Shown: piece after piece, positions 5,688 to 22,664 of the stretch
How the letters are laid out: each line of letters opens with the position of its first letter
Numbering within the stretch: position 1 is the stretch's first letter
DNA from: a virus
Direction: 5' to 3' (one strand)
IMG/VR virus record: IMGVR_UViG_3300005915_002008
Location: 1 to 24,655 of that record
DNA: 24,655 nucleotides
Made by a program: the position numbers and the translations under genes
Notes under the pieces: generated by a model
What the model was told of the DNA's origin: nothing
The model's database searches: none
The model's input: the letters and a program-made list of their open reading frames with translations, nothing else

Positions 5688-5721
5688 ACATAAATGTTTT
5701 ATATAAAGGATCTCAAGCATT

Positions 5722-5830
5722 TATGCTACGCATGTATGCTACGCATGTATGCTACGCATGTATGCTATGCATGTATGCTATGCATGTATGCTACGCATGT
5801 ATGCTACGCATATATGCTATGCATGTATGC
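5722..5830. repeat. Eight 13-bp tandem repeats (iteron-like)
   Basis: Eight consecutive copies of TATGCTAYGCATG plus a 5-bp partial copy. The only changes are C/T at one position and one final A. Each unit is an interrupted palindrome (ATGC-N3-GCAT). It lies in a non-coding gap between two leftward genes. The long plus-strand reading frame across it is a by-product of the repeat. It resembles iterons or partition-site arrays bound by small DNA-binding proteins. Confidence 0.85.
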
Positions 5831-5891
5831 ACCCCTATAAAGATCTTAATCCAGGGGGTACAGCACCCCTATAAAGATCTTTATAGGGGTG
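5830..5891. repeat. Perfect 28-bp palindrome with a half-site copy
   Basis: Positions 5864-5891 form a perfect palindrome centred on AGATCT, with CACCCCTATAAAG as its left arm. The 18 bases at 5830-5847 repeat its left portion exactly. A shorter TATAAAGATCTTA copy lies at 5925-5937 and a TATAAAGGATCT variant at about 5702-5713, so related motifs flank the 13-bp array. A dimeric protein site or cruciform is likely. Confidence 0.85.
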
Positions 5892-7514: not shown

Positions 7515-7547
7515 TATAATAACCTTTATAAACATTTTGGTATATAA
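7515..7547 (+). promoter_or_regulatory. Composite promoter of the RHH-helicase operon
   Basis: ATAATAACC, TTTATAAA, two bases, TTTTGGTATATAA. The predicted leader of about 37 nt carries AGGAGGA at 7576-7582, the strongest ribosome-binding site in the window. Confidence 0.78.
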
Positions 7548-7866: not shown

Positions 7867-10740
7867 ATGGGCAATAATTTAAATACAAATCATATAGTTA
7901 GAAATGAAATGATGAATTTGTTTCCGCAGATTAAGAAGTATTGTGGGAACACGACTGGGTCATTTCTAAACACACCAATTTTTGTTATATTATATTTATT
8001 ATACAGTGATAATAGATTTAATAGTATAAAAAATCATGTGTATAAAGAAGATGGGATGATATATTTATATTATCATCAATATAATAGCATAGAAGATTTT
8101 AATAAAATGTCTAAAAAAGATAAAATTGAAGAGAATATAATATTTTATAAATTTCTAAATAATAATGGGAATAAGAACCAAACAAAGAGAGTAATGAATT
8201 TATTAAATCAGTACCAAGGAAATAAGGATTTAATGGATATTAAGCTTGACCATTCGAACTTTGCGTATTATATAAGATTCAATGAGAATATTAGTAATAT
8301 ATTCATAAACTATTTCGAAAGAATTATAAAGAATAATGGGAGATATAACAATCCGAATAATGAGATTAGAACTAGCATGGATGATGAAAATGATAATAAT
8401 GAAAATGAAAATAATGAAAATATAAATAAAGAGAATATAAATAGCATAATAAAGAATAATATTGTAACAGTGACTGATTATTTTATTGATAAAAAATTTA
8501 AGACATTACAAGAGGCTAAGGATATATATAAAAATAAATGTATATACATTCCGAATAGATTCAAGGAAGATCCACAATGCATACTTAATAATTATTATAA
8601 TTATTACATTCCTAAGATTGCGTTTTCGATGATGGACTTTCATAAATTAATAAATTCTAATGATGATTGTAGATTTATAATGAATCCCGAAATTAAGATA
8701 TCCACGTTCGATTATAATGCACTCGGGATGGTGCAGAATGTGCAATTTAGAATTGATGAGATAATAGAAATTAATGAATCATCTGGAGAAAAGTTCGTAG
8801 CAATGTATAAATATATCTGCCCGAGAAAAGAATGCCACGAGAGTGTGCAGATTCTACCAGAGGACATTCATCAAGAACTTCTACATGGATGTAAGAATTA
8901 TATAACAGAAGATAATAGACAAAAGTTTACGAAAATTAAACCTTCTGCATTGAAAAATGATAAAATGAAGTATATATATCTATATAAATGTAAGATTAAA
9001 ATTGCTGAGAATAAAGGGAAAAAGAATTGGAAGGAGATATATATATATAGCTTTAATAATGATATGAAAATTGGTAGATATTATGGGAATATAATTGTGT
9101 TTGATGATAAATTGAATAAAGATGAATCTAAAAATCGGACATTAGTGTTCTTACTCGGATATAACATGATTAAACCAGATGCGAATATAGAAATGATAAA
9201 TAATGAGACTGTACAGAGTGCTAGCAAAAGTTTCTGTGAGAAGATCGGAATGCCACATATTAGACTTATAGATACTGTGTTCGGTGTAAGGTATGTATAC
9301 AAAAAGTTCACGAACTTCGATTTCGAGGATAAAGGGATGTGGCTACAGATTATCACGACCATATCAGAACTCGCAAGGAATCTTTTCGAGCATGAGAAGT
9401 TCGGGATTAATGTGATTAGTAACATGTCACTCGGAAAAACTTTCATTGCGACTAAGTTCGCGCAAATGCTGGACTTGAAGTTCAAGCATTCACCAGATAT
9501 ATCATCGAACATGAGCGAAAAGGGATTCACGGGTGGAATTAATAATAATGGAATGAACATTAATGGTGTGAATATCAAGACTTTTCAGAAGGGTATTGTT
9601 TCATTTGGGGGTACAATTGTCATGGATGAAGCGACTAAATTCTTTACTGATAGTAACTATAACATGGCATTAAAAGGATTCTTTAATAAGAATATAGACA
9701 TTGCCAAGATTGGGGGGAAGACACTTGAGGTTGATTATACACCGATTATGCTTTCGAACTTCGATAGAATTGATAAAGAATATAGAAATGATATATATAA
9801 ATATTATAAAACTAAATGCTTCAAAAATAATGAAGAAGAGATTAATATTCATGAAAATTCGAACACTGAGATCCTGAGATATTTAAATAAAATAGATTTA
9901 TATTTACCAATATCATATTACCAAAATAGTCCGATTGAGAATAAAATACTCGCAGAGTCTGTGTATTATGTTCGGAATGTCTGGACAAAGAATAAGAAGC
10001 TAGACTATAAAAATGGGGGATTAATTGAGGCAATGAATAGAATATTCTTTAATGTCTCGGTTTGGAATACATTGAATGTAAAAAAGAAGAAGTTTAAATC
10101 TGCACATAATATGCTATGTGACATTGAGGATGAGATATTACCAATAAATGAATTTATTGATCAGATTCATGAATATTATAATCCTGAGAATAAGAATATA
10201 CAATTATTTTATGAATATAAAATGTCCGGGAGCAAGGAAGAAAAGCAGATAAAGAAGTTATATAGTAGTATAGAGAAATGGCTCGAGGGCAAGGACTGCG
10301 AGAACATGATTGAGTTTATTACAAACAGCACATATGAAATAGACCCAAAGACAGAGTCGTTATTGCATTCTATGATTGCAGTGATTCAGTTATGTGAGGA
10401 CATAAATTCAACAGAAATTTCTGAGAACGTGAAAAAGTGGGTTGTGTTATTAGTTCTGAAAAATAATAGAGGAATTTCAGAGAGAGAATATAATTTTGAA
10501 AAGAACTTAATGCATATTGATGTTGTGAATTATGATGTGATTGAGCTTGAGGAAGAATTAAAAGAAATTACTGAAGAGAATAAAATTAATGAAAAAGCTA
10601 GAATTGAATTACAAAAAGAGAAGATACAGAAAAAAGAAGAAAATATAAATAATCCGAATGAAAATGAATTGAATGAAAATAAAGACATGAGCATTGAAAT
10701 TAATAATATAAACGAAAAAGAATTTAATGAAATAGAATAA
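7867..10740 (+). CDS. mcm: Divergent MCM-like AAA+ replicative helicase, 957 aa
   Basis: Likely the replicative helicase. A long N-terminal region (about 1-300) precedes a Cys/His cluster (Cys318, Cys323, His324, Cys342), placed like the MCM zinc motif. The ATPase has Walker A NMSLGKT (519-525), then GFTGGI, and Walker B IVMDE (Asp587-Glu588). Helix ALKGFFNKNIDIAKIGG and sensor 1 LSNFD (Asn631) follow. The 62-residue Walker A-B spacing and the ALxxxxxxxxIxIAK pattern are MCM-like rather than SF3-like. The last 100 residues are Glu/Lys/Asn-rich and probably disordered. At 957 aa it is longer than usual archaeal MCMs (about 650-700). An SF3 or other AAA+ helicase is the main alternative. No strong ribosome-binding site is seen, so it may depend on coupling to the RHH gene. 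Confidence 0.65.
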   Translation: MGNNLNTNHIVRNEMMNLFPQIKKYCGNTTGSFLNTPIFVILYLLYSDNRFNSIKNHVYKEDGMIYLYYHQYNSIEDFNKMSKKDKIEENIIFYKFLNNNGNKNQTKRVMNLLNQYQGNKDLMDIKLDHSNFAYYIRFNENISNIFINYFERIIKNNGRYNNPNNEIRTSMDDENDNNENENNENINKENINSIIKNNIVTVTDYFIDKKFKTLQEAKDIYKNKCIYIPNRFKEDPQCILNNYYNYYIPKIAFSMMDFHKLINSNDDCRFIMNPEIKISTFDYNALGMVQNVQFRIDEIIEINESSGEKFVAMYKYICPRKECHESVQILPEDIHQELLHGCKNYITEDNRQKFTKIKPSALKNDKMKYIYLYKCKIKIAENKGKKNWKEIYIYSFNNDMKIGRYYGNIIVFDDKLNKDESKNRTLVFLLGYNMIKPDANIEMINNETVQSASKSFCEKIGMPHIRLIDTVFGVRYVYKKFTNFDFEDKGMWLQIITTISELARNLFEHEKFGINVISNMSLGKTFIATKFAQMLDLKFKHSPDISSNMSEKGFTGGINNNGMNINGVNIKTFQKGIVSFGGTIVMDEATKFFTDSNYNMALKGFFNKNIDIAKIGGKTLEVDYTPIMLSNFDRIDKEYRNDIYKYYKTKCFKNNEEEINIHENSNTEILRYLNKIDLYLPISYYQNSPIENKILAESVYYVRNVWTKNKKLDYKNGGLIEAMNRIFFNVSVWNTLNVKKKKFKSAHNMLCDIEDEILPINEFIDQIHEYYNPENKNIQLFYEYKMSGSKEEKQIKKLYSSIEKWLEGKDCENMIEFITNSTYEIDPKTESLLHSMIAVIQLCEDINSTEISENVKKWVVLLVLKNNRGISEREYNFEKNLMHIDVVNYDVIELEEELKEITEENKINEKARIELQKEKIQKKEENINNPNENELNENKDMSIEINNINEKEFNEIE

Positions 10741-11019: not shown

Positions 11020-11862
11020 ATGAGAAAAGGACAGAAAATTTCAGAAGAAACAAGAAAAAAAATGAGTGAATGGCATAAAGGAAAAATATGTTCTAAAGAA
11101 ACACGAAAAAAAATGAGTATAGTAAATAAAGGAAAAATATTATCAGAAGAAACAAAAAATAAAATAAGTATAGCAAAGAAAGGACATAAAGTTTCAGAAG
11201 AAACAAAAATAAAGATTGGATTAGCAAATAAGGGGCATATAGCTTGGAATAAAGGAAAAGAACGTTCAAAAGAAACAAGACAAAAAATAAGTAAATCAAA
11301 TAAAGGTAGAATTTCACCAATGAAAGGTAAAAACCATTTAGAAGAAACAAAAAGAAAAATGAGTTTAGTTCATAAAGGAAAAATAATGTCACAAGAAGCA
11401 AAAAAAAAAATGAGTATTGTAAAAAAAGGATGTATTCCTTGGATTAAAGGTAAAACACATTCAATAGAAACAAAAAAAAAATTAAGTGAATATCGTAAAG
11501 GTAAAACACATTCAATAGAAACAAAAAAAAAATTAAGAATTATACGTTTAGAACAAATTAAAAAATATTTTAATTCTCAACCATATATAAATGTAGGAAA
11601 GAATGAAAGTCAGATATTAGATAATATTGAAAATATTGATAATATTATTATTAATAGAGATTTTACATGTATAGGTTATCATCCTGACGGTTATTGTAAA
11701 GAAACAAATACAATATATGAAATTGATGAAAAATATCATTTTGATTATAATGGGAATATAAATAAGAAAGATATAATAAGACAGAATAATTTAATTGAGA
11801 AATTGAATTGTGAGTTTGTTAGGATAAAGGATTTTGAAGATTCTAAATATTTTAAGGTGTAA
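11020..11862 (+). CDS. NUMOD3-repeat homing-endonuclease-like protein, 280 aa
   Basis: About nine NUMOD3 repeats (consensus S-x-ET-KKKMS-x-x-x-KGK) cover residues 4-180. NUMOD3 is a DNA-binding module of phage homing endonucleases. The C-terminal 95 residues look like a PD-(D/E)xK nuclease rather than GIY-YIG or HNH: HPDGY (Asp223), then YEIDEKYH (Glu234, Lys238), then RQNNLIEKLNCEFVRI, a pattern seen in Vsr-like fused nucleases. It sits between helicase and primase genes, a typical site for a free-standing homing endonuclease. Its stop codon directly abuts the primase ATG. Almost entirely A/T third positions and long A runs set it apart. Confidence 0.82.
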   Translation: MRKGQKISEETRKKMSEWHKGKICSKETRKKMSIVNKGKILSEETKNKISIAKKGHKVSEETKIKIGLANKGHIAWNKGKERSKETRQKISKSNKGRISPMKGKNHLEETKRKMSLVHKGKIMSQEAKKKMSIVKKGCIPWIKGKTHSIETKKKLSEYRKGKTHSIETKKKLRIIRLEQIKKYFNSQPYINVGKNESQILDNIENIDNIIINRDFTCIGYHPDGYCKETNTIYEIDEKYHFDYNGNINKKDIIRQNNLIEKLNCEFVRIKDFEDSKYFKV

Positions 11863-14366: not shown

Positions 14367-16586
14367 ATGAGTTTGAAGTTTAATTTATCCGCGAGTAGCG
14401 TGTCGAAATATAAGGAATCACAATTAGACTTTTATTATACATATATAGAAAAGTCTAAACCTGATACTCAAATTCTATCAGTTTATGGTAATGCTGGGAA
14501 TATTGTTCATTCTTCCTTAGAGAATTATATTACTTTATTAAAGAATAAGGATGTAACTAAGGGCTATGCAAAGACAGAAGTCGAGAAGTATTTTAGTACT
14601 CAATGGTTTGAAAAGAATATATCACAAATGCAGACGAAAAATAATAAACCCCTTGATATAAATAAATATTTTAATGGATTAAGGAATGCGTTTGTATATA
14701 TAAATAAAAATATTAATATAAGTAATAACTTAATTCCGGAACAGAAGTTCATTTTCCCAATAGTTAATACTAAAGATGCAGTTATAAATTTCAAGGGATT
14801 CATAGATCTTGTGGATGAAACTACTGATATAATTTACGACTGGAAGACAAACTCATCTATTCAGAACTTCAACCTACATGCTAGAATTTATTGCTATGCA
14901 TATTGGAAAATGTATAATAGAATTCCAAAGGCTATATATTATTATTGTAATGTAGATAAGCCAAAAATATATTATTTCACAAAAGATGAAGTTCTAGAAA
15001 CTGAAACTGAATTGAATGATCTATGCAAAGAAATCATAGGTAAAGGACATGACATTTCTAAGTACGATCTAGGTAACTATAATCATATATTCAATGTACA
15101 TTTACAGAAGTGCAAAAGAGAGGCATTGAATAGACAGGACTCTGATGTGATACAATACAATATTGAAAAGAATAATATAATATTCAGAAATTTAAACAAC
15201 AATTTAAAGAATATAATTGATAAAAAATTTAGTTATTATATAAACGGTCATGAGTTTAGTGACTTATTTAAAAAGAGAATATGGGATGGCAAAACTCATT
15301 TATTTAGTATAAAAAGTAACAAATTACCTATTGGTTTATTTACGATTTTCAAAAAATTACTTAATCAATATAATAAATATTCAGAAAGGGACTATAAATT
15401 AGAACTAAAGTATGATTTAAGAAATAAAGATATAATGTCTAATCAATTCGAGACTAAGTTTAAGGACAATAAAGATATAGAATTAAGATATTACCAAAAT
15501 GATGCAATAAAAAGTGCGATAGAAAACAAGATAGGAATTATATATGGCGGAACTGGTTGTGGTAAGTCTATCATTTCAGCAGAGATTATTAAGAATATAA
15601 ATAAAAGAAGTTTATATATTATAAATAGAATAGAACTTGTTGATCAAACTGCAGAGGTCTTTGAGGAATATTTAGGAATAGAAATTGGGAAAATGTCTGA
15701 GGGGAATCTGGATATAAATAAACAGGTCACAATCGCATCAATTCAAACGGTTAATAGCCTCTTAAAACAGAGCTCTGAGAATTCGAAATTACTAAAAAAG
15801 TATTTATACAATACAAACATCTGTATTTTTGATGAATGCCAGAACGTGAAAGACGATGGGTGCTATAAATTGTTATCGAATAACTTAACTAATTGTGAGT
15901 ATTTAATAGGCATGACAGGAAGTCCATTTAGGAACGATGAGCACACACTTAAAATGAAGGCATTAGTCGGTGATGTTATTTATAGTAAAACTACAAAAGA
16001 TCTAGTATCCGAGAATTACTTAGTTCCGACTAAGGTTTATTTTTTAGAGTACGATACAATTTTTGATAGAAATTATCAAAGCTACTCTGACGCATACACA
16101 GATCTCATTGTAGGAAACATTGAGAGAAATAATTTAATTAAAGACATTGTAAGTAAGTTCGAGAATAAAAAGATCTTAATTATCACAAAATTAATAAAGC
16201 ATGGAAAGTTACTCGAAGAACTTATCCCAGATAGCTTTTTAATCACAAGCCAAACAAAAAAGGATATACGAAAGCAAAAGTTTAAGGACTTCAAGGACAA
16301 TAAATTTAATATTCTTATCGGATCGGCTCAGATATTCTCGACCGGAATTGATATTCCCGATCTTGATATAATTCTAAACAGTAGTGGTCATCGTTCAGAT
16401 GTTTTATCAACTCAAATTATAGGACGAGTTATGCGTAAGTCTAAAAATAAAGAATTTGGATACTACATAGACTTTATAGACGACACGAGTGTATATTTCA
16501 GGCAAGCAACTAAGCAACGAATTCAGATTCTAACAGAATTCGGGCACGAAATTTTAAAAATTAATGATATAAAGGACATACAATAA
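14367..16586 (+). CDS. RecB-like nuclease fused to UvsW-like SF2 helicase, 739 aa
   Basis: Two enzymes in one chain. Residues about 5-250 are a RecB/Cas4-type PD-(D/E)xK nuclease: SASSVSKYKES, GNIVH, EQKF (Glu125), FKGFID (Asp147), IIYDWKT (Asp158, Lys160), and an ARIYCYAYW motif. Residues about 290-330 (RIWDGKTHLFSIKSNKLPIG) match the small N-terminal domain of phage UvsW/D10-like helicases. The SF2 core from 375 has GGTGCGKS (394-401), DECQ (489-492), MTGSP, STGIDIP and QIIGRVMR (683-690). UvsW-type helicases unwind branched DNA and R-loops. With an attached nuclease it may process recombination or replication intermediates. All catalytic residues are present. No iron-sulphur Cys set like that of Cas4 is seen. 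Confidence 0.88.
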   Translation: MSLKFNLSASSVSKYKESQLDFYYTYIEKSKPDTQILSVYGNAGNIVHSSLENYITLLKNKDVTKGYAKTEVEKYFSTQWFEKNISQMQTKNNKPLDINKYFNGLRNAFVYINKNINISNNLIPEQKFIFPIVNTKDAVINFKGFIDLVDETTDIIYDWKTNSSIQNFNLHARIYCYAYWKMYNRIPKAIYYYCNVDKPKIYYFTKDEVLETETELNDLCKEIIGKGHDISKYDLGNYNHIFNVHLQKCKREALNRQDSDVIQYNIEKNNIIFRNLNNNLKNIIDKKFSYYINGHEFSDLFKKRIWDGKTHLFSIKSNKLPIGLFTIFKKLLNQYNKYSERDYKLELKYDLRNKDIMSNQFETKFKDNKDIELRYYQNDAIKSAIENKIGIIYGGTGCGKSIISAEIIKNINKRSLYIINRIELVDQTAEVFEEYLGIEIGKMSEGNLDINKQVTIASIQTVNSLLKQSSENSKLLKKYLYNTNICIFDECQNVKDDGCYKLLSNNLTNCEYLIGMTGSPFRNDEHTLKMKALVGDVIYSKTTKDLVSENYLVPTKVYFLEYDTIFDRNYQSYSDAYTDLIVGNIERNNLIKDIVSKFENKKILIITKLIKHGKLLEELIPDSFLITSQTKKDIRKQKFKDFKDNKFNILIGSAQIFSTGIDIPDLDIILNSSGHRSDVLSTQIIGRVMRKSKNKEFGYYIDFIDDTSVYFRQATKQRIQILTEFGHEILKINDIKDIQ

Positions 16587-16614
16587 ATACGTTTATAAAT
16601 ATTTTGGTATATAA
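16582..16614 (+). promoter_or_regulatory. Composite promoter
   Basis: AATAAATAC, TTTATAAA, two bases, TTTTGGTATATAA: full consensus, beginning at the stop codon of the helicase gene. The predicted leader of the next gene is only about 15 nt. Confidence 0.78.
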
Positions 16615-16635
16615 ATATATAAAATGTGAATACAT

Positions 16636-18252
16636 ATGAATTTAAATTTGAATAACATTGCATGGTCAGAAAAATACAGACCGAAGAATGTCGATGCTGT
16701 GGTTTCGGATAGTAAGCAGAAGATAAAGAAATACCTAGAGAACCCTGAGAGCATCGAGATAAATAAAATATATTGTATGGATTGTATTGATGGCATGAAG
16801 CAGCTAGAAGCTAATAGTGTAGACTCAATAGTAACTGATCCACCCTATGAATTAGGTTTCATGGGTAAGTCTTGGGATGGAACAGGAATTGCATTTAAAC
16901 CAGAAGTTTGGAAACAAGCTCTACGAGTATTAAAACCAGGAGGACATCTTTTAGGTTTTGGTGGAACTAGGACTTATCACCGTATGGCCTGTGCAATTGA
17001 GGATGCTGGGTTTGAGATAAGAGACCAGATACAATGGATTTATTCTACTGGATTCCCTAAGTCACTGAATATTGGAAAAGCTATTGATAAAGTTAGTAAA
17101 AGATTAAATTTATTCACACCATTTGCTAGGTACTTAAAAGAGCAAAGACTAAAAAAAGGTTTTGTGATAACTGATGTTTCAAAGCATTTTATGAGCAAAA
17201 CTGGGGGTGTGACTGGTTGTGTTAGTAATTGGGAATTAGGATATAGTACTCCAACTAAGACACAATTTATAATTCTAAAGCAATTATTAGACCTAGAAGA
17301 TACTTTTGATGACTTGATAAATAGGGTTGAAGCAGAAAGAAAAGTAATTGGAGAACAACATAGATCTGCTGGGAATGATGTAAATATACCATTTTCTGCT
17401 TGTCATACAAATAAAAATAATGGTTGGTTTAATATTACAGCCCCATCCACAGACCAGGCTAAGAAGTATGATGGTTGGGGTACAAATTTAAAACCTGCCA
17501 ATGAACCAATTTGTGTAGCGAGGAAGCCTTTAGAGGAAAAGACTGTTGCTGCTAATGTTCTAAAATATGGTACTGGTGGTATTAACATCGATGACTGCAG
17601 GATTGGAACTGATGAAAATATAGAATTAGGCAGAAATAATAGAAAGGAATGTATTTCTAATTCATTTGGTCGAAAATTACTGGGTATAGATAGGAGTGGA
17701 TTAAATCAAGGTCGTTTTCCTTCTAATGTGATTCTTGATGGTTCAGAAGAAGTTACTAATTTATTTCCTAATAGTAAATCAACTGGTAGTGATGGATCTA
17801 AATTTAATAATTCTTGTTTTAAAGGATTAGAAAAAGATGTTATTAAAAAAGATGGACTTGGTTTTGGTGATGATGGTTCAGCTTCTCGTTTCTTTTACTG
17901 TGCAAAGGCAAGTAAGTCTGAGAGGAATAAAGGGCTTGAGGGATTTGATGATGTAAAAGGTGGTTCAATGGAAGGTGGAAATGATAAAAGAAATGGGTTA
18001 AATAAACCACAATTGAAATTAACAAAAAATATTCATCCTACTATAAAACCAGTTAAGTTAATAGAATATTTAATCAGGCTTGTGACTCCAAAGGGTGGGG
18101 TTGTTTTAGACCCTTTCATGGGTAGTGGCACGACTGGAATGGCTGCTAAGGCTCAGGGGTTCAATTACATTGGGTTTGACATGACTAAAGAATACTGTGA
18201 AATAGCAGAAGCCAGAATTAAGAGTGTAGATCACCAAATGAAATTATTTTAA
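16636..18252 (+). CDS. DNA methyltransferase with RFC-like N terminus and internal HTH, 538 aa
   Basis: A beta-class N4/N6 amino-methyltransferase: catalytic TDPPYE (Asp68-Tyr71) comes first, the AdoMet loop DPFMGSGTTG (492-501) last, and HPTIKPVKLIEYLI just before it. Such enzymes methylate adenine or cytosine in viral DNA, often for protection. Two additions stand out. Residues 8-40 (AWSEKYRPKNVDAVVSD, KIKKYLENPES) match the start of archaeal replication factor C small subunits, but no RFC ATPase follows. Residues about 160-222 (YLKEQRLKKGFVITDVSKHF, CVSNWELG) resemble an XRE helix-turn-helix, probably the target-recognition insert. The methyltransferase body uses more GGT/GGA codons than flanking genes, a sign of transfer. 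It is followed 18 nt later by the polymerase. Confidence 0.85.
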   Translation: MNLNLNNIAWSEKYRPKNVDAVVSDSKQKIKKYLENPESIEINKIYCMDCIDGMKQLEANSVDSIVTDPPYELGFMGKSWDGTGIAFKPEVWKQALRVLKPGGHLLGFGGTRTYHRMACAIEDAGFEIRDQIQWIYSTGFPKSLNIGKAIDKVSKRLNLFTPFARYLKEQRLKKGFVITDVSKHFMSKTGGVTGCVSNWELGYSTPTKTQFIILKQLLDLEDTFDDLINRVEAERKVIGEQHRSAGNDVNIPFSACHTNKNNGWFNITAPSTDQAKKYDGWGTNLKPANEPICVARKPLEEKTVAANVLKYGTGGINIDDCRIGTDENIELGRNNRKECISNSFGRKLLGIDRSGLNQGRFPSNVILDGSEEVTNLFPNSKSTGSDGSKFNNSCFKGLEKDVIKKDGLGFGDDGSASRFFYCAKASKSERNKGLEGFDDVKGGSMEGGNDKRNGLNKPQLKLTKNIHPTIKPVKLIEYLIRLVTPKGGVVLDPFMGSGTTGMAAKAQGFNYIGFDMTKEYCEIAEARIKSVDHQMKLF

Positions 18253-18270: not shown

Positions 18271-20013
18271 ATGAATTACATTAATGATTATTTAGGCTTA
18301 AATGAATTAAAGGTGTTTGCATTTGACACAGAGACGTACGGTCTAGAATTTGATACAATAAACCTAAAAGACATAAGCTTTAGTGATGGTACTAATTCAT
18401 ATTACTTCGATAAGGATCATTTAGATATCGAAAAATTAAAGAATGTACTAATTAACGCGGATTTAATAATCGGGCATAATCTAATATTCGACTTGACTGT
18501 GATGTCTAAGTTCTTTGGTCGAAGCTTTTTATTCGAGATAAATAATGTACCACTATTTGATACCATGCTAGCACAATATATACTAAACGAAAATGCTAAG
18601 AAGGGATTAAAGCATCTAAGTGAGACTATTTTGGGATATAAAATGCAGACTTACGAGGAATCTGTTAATAGCCTGAATAAAGAAACTTGGATTAAGTATA
18701 GTCTAGAGGATTCAATTCAGACATTTAAACTGTATAAATATTTTAAAAATAAAGTTAATAATAATAAAGTATTCAAGAGAGAATGTAAGGCTATACTCCC
18801 AATCGTGGACATGCAACTCGAGGGCTTTCTCGTGGACAAGACTAAATTTAAGGACATAAAAGAAAAAATGGAGAATAGACTCAAGGAAATTGAGGATGAG
18901 TTTATATCGGTTTTTAAGAAATATGGATTAAAACAAAATAGCCTGTTCGGTAGCATTATCCCGATAAACCTAAATTCACCAAAGCAGTTAAAGAAGTTTA
19001 TTAATAACAAATTAAAAATAAAAATTGAGGATACAAGTGTTAAGACACTAAAGAATTATAAAACGAAGCATAAGTTTTTTGAATTGTTATTGGATTATAG
19101 GCATATTTATAAGTTATACAATAGCTATATTAAGCCTTTTGAAGAAAAACACATACAATCAGATGGTAAAATACACGCGAGTTTTAATCCAACTGGAACA
19201 GTAACCGGCAGATATTCAAGTTCTTCTCCAAATCTTCAACAAATCCCATCCTTTGACGAGTTTGGTATGAGGGAACTATTTATAGCAGATAAGGGTTATA
19301 AAATAGCTTGTTTGGACTATGCCGGACAAGAGATTAGGCTCGCAGCCATTATTTCTAATGATAGGAATATGAAAGATGCACTTTTGAATAATAAAGATAT
19401 ACATCTAATGACTGCTAATAGTGTTTATAACTTAGGCATACCCTCTGAATGTCTAAAGACTAATCATAAAGATTACAAAATGTATAAAGATAAGTTCAAT
19501 GCATACAGAAAAAAGGCGAAGATGGTGAACTTCGGTGTTCTCTATGGCGCAGGTGCGATGGGTGTTTCTAACCTCACAGGTGAGTCCGAGGATAAGGCAC
19601 AGGAAATGATTGATAATTTTTTTGAATTTTATACAGGAATAAAATTAAAAATTAATAAAAATTCTAATTATTTATATAAATATAATGAGGTTATAAATTT
19701 ATTTGGTAGACAAAGGAGATTTGAATTGATTGACAGTAAAGCAAAAAGACAATCATTCAATTTCTTAATTCAAGGTACAGCTGGGGATATGTTAAAGATA
19801 GACTTATATAGAGTTTGGAATGAAGTTGTATTAAAATATAAAGATAATATTAAATTAAAAGCTACAGTACATGATGAAATAATATTTATGATTAAAGAAA
19901 ATATGATAGACGAAATATTACCACAATTAGTTAATATCATGCAAGACTTTAAATTTGAAATCCCAATAATAGTAGATTATAATATAGGAAATAATTATGG
20001 TTCAGCTCATTAA
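18271..20013 (+). CDS. polA: Family A DNA polymerase with 3'-5' exonuclease, 580 aa
   Basis: The replicative or repair polymerase. Exonuclease motifs are intact: FDTET (Asp19, Glu21), GHNLIFD (Asn70, Asp74), and YSLEDS (Tyr143, Asp147). The polymerase domain has TGRYSSSSPNLQQIP, motif A LDYAGQEIR (Asp349), motif B KAKMVNFGVLYG, FLIQGTAGDMLK, and motif C VHDE (Asp535, Glu536). There is no 5'-3' exonuclease domain, and at 580 aa it is compact like phage enzymes. GGGT lies before the ATG. Family A polymerases are typical of bacteria and phages, while archaeal hosts replicate with families B and D, so this is an acquired viral polymerase. In motif A, AGQEI replaces the more usual SQIEL. Confidence 0.95.
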   Translation: MNYINDYLGLNELKVFAFDTETYGLEFDTINLKDISFSDGTNSYYFDKDHLDIEKLKNVLINADLIIGHNLIFDLTVMSKFFGRSFLFEINNVPLFDTMLAQYILNENAKKGLKHLSETILGYKMQTYEESVNSLNKETWIKYSLEDSIQTFKLYKYFKNKVNNNKVFKRECKAILPIVDMQLEGFLVDKTKFKDIKEKMENRLKEIEDEFISVFKKYGLKQNSLFGSIIPINLNSPKQLKKFINNKLKIKIEDTSVKTLKNYKTKHKFFELLLDYRHIYKLYNSYIKPFEEKHIQSDGKIHASFNPTGTVTGRYSSSSPNLQQIPSFDEFGMRELFIADKGYKIACLDYAGQEIRLAAIISNDRNMKDALLNNKDIHLMTANSVYNLGIPSECLKTNHKDYKMYKDKFNAYRKKAKMVNFGVLYGAGAMGVSNLTGESEDKAQEMIDNFFEFYTGIKLKINKNSNYLYKYNEVINLFGRQRRFELIDSKAKRQSFNFLIQGTAGDMLKIDLYRVWNEVVLKYKDNIKLKATVHDEIIFMIKENMIDEILPQLVNIMQDFKFEIPIIVDYNIGNNYGSAH

Positions 20014-21416: not shown

Positions 21417-22664
21417 ATGATTGATATAAATAGTATGATACAACAGGTATTACAAAGCGAGATTCTAAGTGGTGCATTATTTATTAGCGTTTTCATGGGA
21501 TTAATATATTCATTAAAAGGATTACCCCTTAAATTCTGGAATTGGATAAAGAAATATATATATTATGAAGTTTATATATATGAAACTGATAATTTGTTTG
21601 TATATTTTGAGAAATTCTTAAATAAGAATTACAATAAAAAATATAGAAAAGTTGAGGCAGTTACAGAATTTAATAAATTAGACACAGATATAGGTTATGA
21701 TAAAGCACCCGAATCAGACTCGAATATAAATAAAAAACAAAAAAAGAAAAATGTGTTTATGAAGCAATATCAAATGATATTCACAATTAAGTATAATAAA
21801 AAATATTATATTATAAATAAAGGTCGTGAGAAATTCGAGAATACAAACAATTTAAAAAATGCGTACATGAATCATTATAACATAAAAACTTTATTTTATA
21901 ATAAAAGGTATATAAATAAGTTATTGAATGAGTTAGTCGAAAAGAATATTAAAAAAAAAGTGACAAACACAATTTATGCAAACAATTCTGATTATTGGAT
22001 TAGAGCTTGTGAGAAGAATCTTAGGAGTCTAAAAACAGTTGTGTTAAACAATAAAATAAAGAATGAAGTTATTAATGCATTAAAGAAATTTAACTCGAAT
22101 AAGTCATGGTACAAAAAGCGTGGGATTCCTTATAAACTAGGAATACTATTGCATGGTCCACCAGGGAATGGAAAGACGTCATTGATTCAAGCAATAGCGA
22201 ATGAATTTAAAAAAGACATTTATTATCTAAATCTAGGAAACACAAAGGACGATTATTTAGCTAGATTGTTTAGGTGCATTAATGAAAATAGTATAATTAT
22301 AATTGAGGACATTGATGCATTATTCAAGTCAAAAAGAGAAATGAATAATAAGGATTTAACATTCAGTGGGTTTATTAATGTCCTAGATGGTCTGATGTCC
22401 TCAGAGAATGTAGTATCGATCTTCACAACAAATAAAAAATTGAGCTTAGACGAGGCTCTAATGCGACCAGGCAGGATCGATTTTAAGATTGAGATCCCGA
22501 ATCCGACAATTAATGAAATTAAAGAATATTATAAATTATTTTTTAATACAAATATTAAAATTAAAAAATTAATTAAGAATATTAGCATGGCAGAAGTACA
22601 GGATATATTCCTAAAAAATTTAGAAAATAAAGATAGAATAAATAAGTTATTAGAAGGAAAATGA
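21417..22664 (+). CDS. BCS1-like membrane-anchored AAA+ ATPase, 415 aa
   Basis: Residues about 16-34 are a single membrane span (LSGALFISVFMGLIYSLKG). They are followed by a roughly 190-residue BCS1-type middle region and the phrase WYKKRGIPYKLGILLHGPPG that marks the BCS1 family. Walker A is GPPGNGKTS (247-255), Walker B IIIEDID (Glu297), sensor FTTNKK, and arginine-finger segment LMRPGRIDFKI. BCS1 proteins form heptamers that move folded proteins across membranes. Prokaryotic and viral relatives are uncharacterised. The last 50 residues are helical. Its stop overlaps the start of the RecU-like nuclease, so the two products probably act together or are needed in proportion. Confidence 0.88.
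   Translation: MIDINSMIQQVLQSEILSGALFISVFMGLIYSLKGLPLKFWNWIKKYIYYEVYIYETDNLFVYFEKFLNKNYNKKYRKVEAVTEFNKLDTDIGYDKAPESDSNINKKQKKKNVFMKQYQMIFTIKYNKKYYIINKGREKFENTNNLKNAYMNHYNIKTLFYNKRYINKLLNELVEKNIKKKVTNTIYANNSDYWIRACEKNLRSLKTVVLNNKIKNEVINALKKFNSNKSWYKKRGIPYKLGILLHGPPGNGKTSLIQAIANEFKKDIYYLNLGNTKDDYLARLFRCINENSIIIIEDIDALFKSKREMNNKDLTFSGFINVLDGLMSSENVVSIFTTNKKLSLDEALMRPGRIDFKIEIPNPTINEIKEYYKLFFNTNIKIKKLIKNISMAEVQDIFLKNLENKDRINKLLEGK

Follow-up and report, generated by a model that had tools for sequence, protein, structure and literature searches.

Archaeal RFC small and large subunits and the phage clamp loader gp44 (PHROG 168) have box II (WxEKYRPK) and the helix next to it in common, N-terminal and in register. 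The P-loop (box III) follows about 25-30 residues past EKYRP, and the collar domain (PF08542) is C-terminal. Phage beta-class DNA methyltransferases (PF01555, PHROG 67), such as those of Klebsiella phage Kpn BU9 and Mycobacterium phage DrDrey, are built from a catalytic domain, a variable middle region and a C-terminal tail. Here, we describe a viral gene in which the beginning of a clamp loader is joined to such a methyltransferase. It has the catalytic domain, motif order, variable middle and tail of the phage enzymes; from RFC and gp44 it differs in that the clamp-loader part ends before the P-loop and is followed by neither AAA+ core nor collar.

The gene lies in a window of 24,655 bases, which is the whole of IMG/VR record IMGVR_UViG_3300005915_002008 from an unclassified tailed virus. 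The ORF (16636-18252) encodes 538 amino acids reading MNLNLNNIAWSEKYRPKNVDAVVSDSKQKIKKYLENPES/IEINKIYCMDC... and is a two-part protein: residues 1-39 (16636..16752, + strand) are the N-terminal fragment of a clamp loader (RFC/gp44), and residues 40-538 with the stop codon (16753..18252, + strand) are a complete beta-class DNA amino-methyltransferase. A previous sequence-only reading had described the ORF as a clamp-loader N terminus on a DNA methyltransferase that is complete over residues 42-538, with no RFC Walker motifs after the EKYRPK segment. RFC profile matches and the Pfam methyltransferase domain, which covers about residues 40-538, confirm this, and the RFC P-loop is indeed absent.

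Results

Two further IMG/VR records, 3300025669_000046 (50,826 bases) and 3300022890_001509 (16,775 bases), overlap the window at about 99.98% identity, and the ORF is identical letter for letter in all three. The 50,826-base record contains tailed-virus genes for a major head protein, tail-fibre-type proteins and, by a weak match, a terminase. Homing genes of the NUMOD3 type are present as well, and the terminase ORF seems to contain an intein; in the window, a protein with six NUMOD3 motifs, of the homing-endonuclease type, is encoded at 11020-11862. The chimera itself is part of a replication/recombination module. Its upstream neighbour combines a PD-(D/E)XK nuclease and a UvsW-like helicase in a single fusion protein (14367..16586, + strand, 739 residues), its downstream neighbour is a family A DNA polymerase (polA; 18271..20013, + strand), and the 18 bases from the methyltransferase stop at 18252 to polA hold no rfc remainder. 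Elsewhere in the window, the first large gene on the replication side (7867-10740) encodes a protein of 957 residues with zero matches in Pfam, PHROGs and the phage collection. A BCS1-like AAA ATPase with the BCS1 N-terminal domain is encoded in this tailed virus at 21417-22664, adjoined by a RecU/Holliday-resolvase-like gene, and tandem 13-base repeats (GCATGTATGCTAC/T) at 5691-5846 lie in the half with leftward genes, near the switch to rightward genes.

Residues 9-17 of the ORF are an intact box II core, AWSEKYRPK, and the segment runs through the first helix on to ...KKYLENPES, just ahead of the place of the P-loop. Searched alone against RFC, as the earlier reading had proposed, residues 1-45 matched seven NCBIfam models, and all seven were RFC models (E = 5.2e-5 for the best, a large-subunit model, and 7.2e-4 for the small subunit). 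The two best PHROG matches were clamp loaders (E = 0.0017 and 0.013), and the PHROG 168 (gp44) profile, run against the virus, matched the leader locus with profile positions 3-39. Searched in six frames, 50,697 phage records gave about 440 at E <= 10; clamp loaders with the alignment at their N-terminus made up nearly all of the matches listed, including those of halovirus HCTV-1, cyanophages, Campylobacter phages and Kuttervirus. A match of the leader to pf16 was on the wrong strand and due to chance. An RFC HMM built from six phage clamp loaders of the six-frame search and run on 9,796 stop-to-stop frames found the chimera at E = 3.5e-7. When residues 1-40 were aligned with 80 viral clamp loaders, the top score was 82 and the median 57; the 200 shuffles reached 54 at most. 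Judged by these comparisons, the clamp-loader origin of the leader is beyond chance. Its assignment to an archaeal RFC small subunit did not hold: that label is too specific because RFC large subunits, RFC small subunits and gp44 have box II in common, and their scores overlap. By its sequence the leader could derive from an archaeal RFC or a phage gp44, and the two sources are indistinguishable. It is 1-2 residues shorter than the same segment in most clamp loaders.

The closest unfused relative, L004 (54% identity), is a free-standing gene with its own ATG and starts M-LKINKIYNMDC; L060, L061 and L050 read LKINNVY, LEINNIY and LEINQVY at the same place. Across the junction the chimera reads ...YLENPES-IEINKIYCMDC. 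Because unfused L004 starts with M-LKINKIY there, the junction is at the methyltransferase's own start codon, and the methyltransferase part, whose first residue is number 40, picks up immediately behind the place of L004's initiator Met. The switch, formerly put at about residue 42, is real and its position is corrected to 39/40 (around 16752). Beyond this point, clamp loaders run into the strand ahead of the P-loop. A HokkenD match that seemed to reach query residue 9 was spurious, since its methyltransferase CDS starts 39 codons past the match start.

The two parts also differ in composition. GC3 is 0.53 over residues 9-42 and 0.21 in the methyltransferase, against a mean of 29% in native gene windows; as the stretch comprises only 34 codons and 4.5% of native 34-codon windows reach 53%, the contrast can only lend support. 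In codon usage, residues 1-42 side with the virus and lie away from every methyltransferase window. In the AlphaFold model, computed with methyltransferase and clamp-loader rows, residues 1-40 have a pLDDT of about 40-62 with one helix (19-34), and the prediction is confident from residue 41.

The methyltransferase part matches the N6_N4_Mtase domain (PF01555) with 133.7 bits against a curated cut-off of 26.7 (E = 1.2e-38). The catalytic motif IV, DPPY (residues 68-71; 16837..16848, + strand), is conserved in relatives, and the SAM-binding motif I, DPFMGSGTT (residues 492-500; 18109..18135, + strand), stands behind motif IV, as in beta-class enzymes. The AlphaFold model has a mean pLDDT of 67.8, with a core above 90, and its best Foldseek match is CcrM (6pbd, E = 2.8e-13). 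The predicted structure is thus that of a methyltransferase fold with beta-class motif order, and the DPPY motif makes adenine-N6 the probable target. Pfam gave no known helix-turn-helix domain in the variable middle region.

The combination of leader and methyltransferase is rare. A W-x-EKYRPK DNA pattern run over IMG/VR viral contigs yielded at least 80 loci, and the P-loop follows the motif in 80/80 viral ORFs among the matches listed; the truncated state of the chimera in the window is therefore exceptional. When related genomes were screened for the same chimera with an EKYRP...DPPY pattern (DPPY 44-53 codons later), IMG/VR yielded this virus only and no second chimera; the scan covered the codon choices GAA AAA and GAG AAR, so that chimeras with GAA AAG would be missed. 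No other viral relatives of the first 48 residues were found. The same 48 residues scanned against 84,980 cellular genomes, a scan that detects close relatives only, gave a single chance match: a RecQ-type helicase from a Bacteroidales MAG contains EKGKKYLENPESIEISK, and it was rejected as leader donor since the remaining protein is unrelated. Comparable leaders are lacking at the 80 methyltransferase loci taken from viral contigs, except in the two records of this virus, and a literature search for clamp-loader/methyltransferase fusions found none.

In the sister contigs, the collar (PF08542), PCNA_N and gp45 families are unmatched, and apart from the chimera locus the AAA matches are to the BCS1-like ATPase and the helicase only. 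In the 50.8-kb sister contig, which is possibly incomplete so that a separate rfc could lie outside it, neither an intact rfc nor a clamp gene was found, and a clamp-loader core was not recognisable. Related genomes were approached through the helicase, polA and capsid genes for an rfc still intact at this locus, and only the same virus population was recovered.

A promoter-like element, TTTATAAATATTTTGGTATATAA (16592..16614, + strand; repeat families D3/D6/D15), is separated from the chimera's ATG by 21 bases. It is a copy of the 23-base element TTTATAAAyATTTTGGTATATAA. The 50.8-kb record, in which coordinates are offset from the window by a 3-base assembly indel, has six such copies at 0-3 mismatches, each followed by an ORF within 7-49 bases; a random genome is expected to give about one match even at <=5 mismatches. 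In the window, copies stand ahead of genes at 7522, 13169, 16592 and 20055 on the + strand and at about 5253 and 5653 on the - strand. The chimera therefore sits behind the virus's own promoter-like element, which bears out what the sequence-only reading had said of the upstream promoter. Between element and ATG, a putative weak Shine-Dalgarno-like GTGA with spacer (16626..16635, + strand) resembles the virus's other AGTGAAATAGATATG starts.

Discussion

In our judgement, the best account of this locus, to which we give a probability of roughly 60%, is that a viral clamp-loader gene gave way to the methyltransferase, which retained the promoter and start of the old gene along with its first 39 codons, now a largely passive leader. 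An orphan, virus-borne beta-class methyltransferase gene would have taken the slot of an RFC/gp44-type clamp loader in the order nuclease-helicase, rfc, polA. Codon 39 of the clamp loader would have been fused in frame, by recombination or deletion, to the second codon of the methyltransferase, with loss of all that followed in the clamp-loader gene. Placed in this slot and joined in frame, the methyltransferase would now be driven from the promoter, ribosome-binding region and ATG that had served rfc. The product would be a DNA methyltransferase with a clamp-loader leader of 39 residues that is mostly passive and may have been retained as the supplier of a start codon. The lost gene was presumably the virus's own, and the enzyme may modify viral DNA, probably to escape host restriction.

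The ancestral state is one that we infer, since the searches turned up no related virus that retains an intact rfc here. For the same reason, and because no clamp-loader remnant lies before polA, two histories are inseparable: insertion into rfc with loss of the remainder, and in-frame deletion between neighbouring rfc and methyltransferase genes fit equally well. The former proposal that the methyltransferase inserted into a viral rfc gene and captured its promoter and start is therefore upheld as to promoter capture, with insertion itself as one of the two histories.

Alternatively, the leader could be functional. The clamp-loader segment would then recruit the methyltransferase to the host or viral clamp loader, and new viral DNA would be methylated as it is made. 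In favour of this, the box II core is intact, and the cell has a precedent for a replication-coupled methyltransferase in PCNA-Dnmt1 (PMC9690074). Methyltransferase genes also adjoin clamp-loader genes in other phages: in Synechococcus phage S-RIM8 (L099) the methyltransferase gene lies between gp44 and a second clamp-loader gene, and in Campylobacter phage CP20 (L103) the gene for the RFC small subunit is immediately preceded by genes that carry the annotation methylation subunit. However, formation of the RFC complex requires the RFC C-terminal region (PMC9223238), and the chimera lacks both the ATPase core and the C-terminal collar; the confidence of the model is low for residues 1-40, and the segment is slightly shorter than in most clamp loaders. 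We thus consider recruitment by the leader unlikely, and the docking tag that had been offered as the other explanation of the EKYRP segment found no positive support.

A second observation bears on coupling to the replisome. The methyltransferase ends in QMKLF (18235..18249, + strand), which loosely fits the bacterial beta-clamp-binding pentapeptide, consensus QL(S/D)LF and commonly C-terminal (PMC9690074), and this resemblance makes replisome coupling plausible for the methyltransferase family. Clamp-like tails (QxxLF/LF) occur in 10/78 family members, among them the enzyme in the window and the relatives L004, L076, L030, L020, L028, L046 and L058, as against 3 of the 718 further ORFs at these loci; with the family clustered at 60% identity the count is 8/57 (Fisher p ~7e-8). 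The dipeptide LF is found in the last 8 residues of 17/78 family members and of 12/718 background ORFs. This enrichment needs an independent test, since the search was made after QMKLF had been seen and the sequences counted are related, and it suggests clamp-tethered methylation in the phage methyltransferase family. Because the motif is at the opposite end of the protein and is present in unfused relatives, the leader is not needed for it, and any link to the replisome would be better sought at the QMKLF end. That the leader is a selected replisome-docking tag, with clamp-loader fragment and clamp-binding motif at opposite ends and methylation at the fork, is more doubtful still. If either leader or QMKLF proved functional, this would point to replication-coupled methylation in phages.

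Less probable again is a foreign origin of the leader, from a cellular or another viral RFC-like gene in place of the virus's own rfc at the locus. The best NCBIfam E-values are indeed to archaeal-type RFC models, and the GC3 of residues 9-42 is above that of most native windows; but the upstream promoter is the virus's own repeated element, and the scan of cellular genomes, within its reach of close relatives, returned nothing beyond the chance helicase match. A chance resemblance, with residues 1-39 as an unremarkable N-terminal extension that spells EKYRPK by accident, is very improbable. Single pairwise matches are weak (best E of 0.078 in the PDB, where the matches are mostly RFC, and 0.1-0.5 for phage tblastn), but the profile E-values of 5e-5 and 3.5e-7, match lists that are all RFC, the in-register alignment from the N-terminus, scores far above the shuffles and the lack of a comparable extension in any relative among the methyltransferase loci argue against it. 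An assembly error near 16760, with an rfc read joined to a methyltransferase contig, would be conceivable for a metagenomic source and is all but excluded: three separately named assemblies share the ORF and its flanks, identical over 13-24 kb, and the junction is in frame.

As we read it, the locus is a clear snapshot of gene turnover within the replication cluster of a virus, the newcomer having retained the promoter, start and first codons of its predecessor. It is singular but well supported as the scar of a gene replacement, and the enzyme family that bears the scar is a known one. It also illustrates that a short signature motif can mislead annotation.

With CcrM (6pbd), M.BceJIV and MboIIA the chimera has the fold of the methyltransferase domain in common; these enzymes are shorter and lack the RFC leader. 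The free-standing phage methyltransferases start at or near the fusion residue of the chimera, and the leader is absent from the 80 loci examined, the two records of this virus apart. A phage DNA methylase with the ShiLan-type insertion (PMC11855218) likewise carries foreign sequence in frame and without internal stops; there, however, the insertion is internal and harbours a hidden HNH endonuclease, whereas the chimera has an N-terminal clamp-loader fragment.
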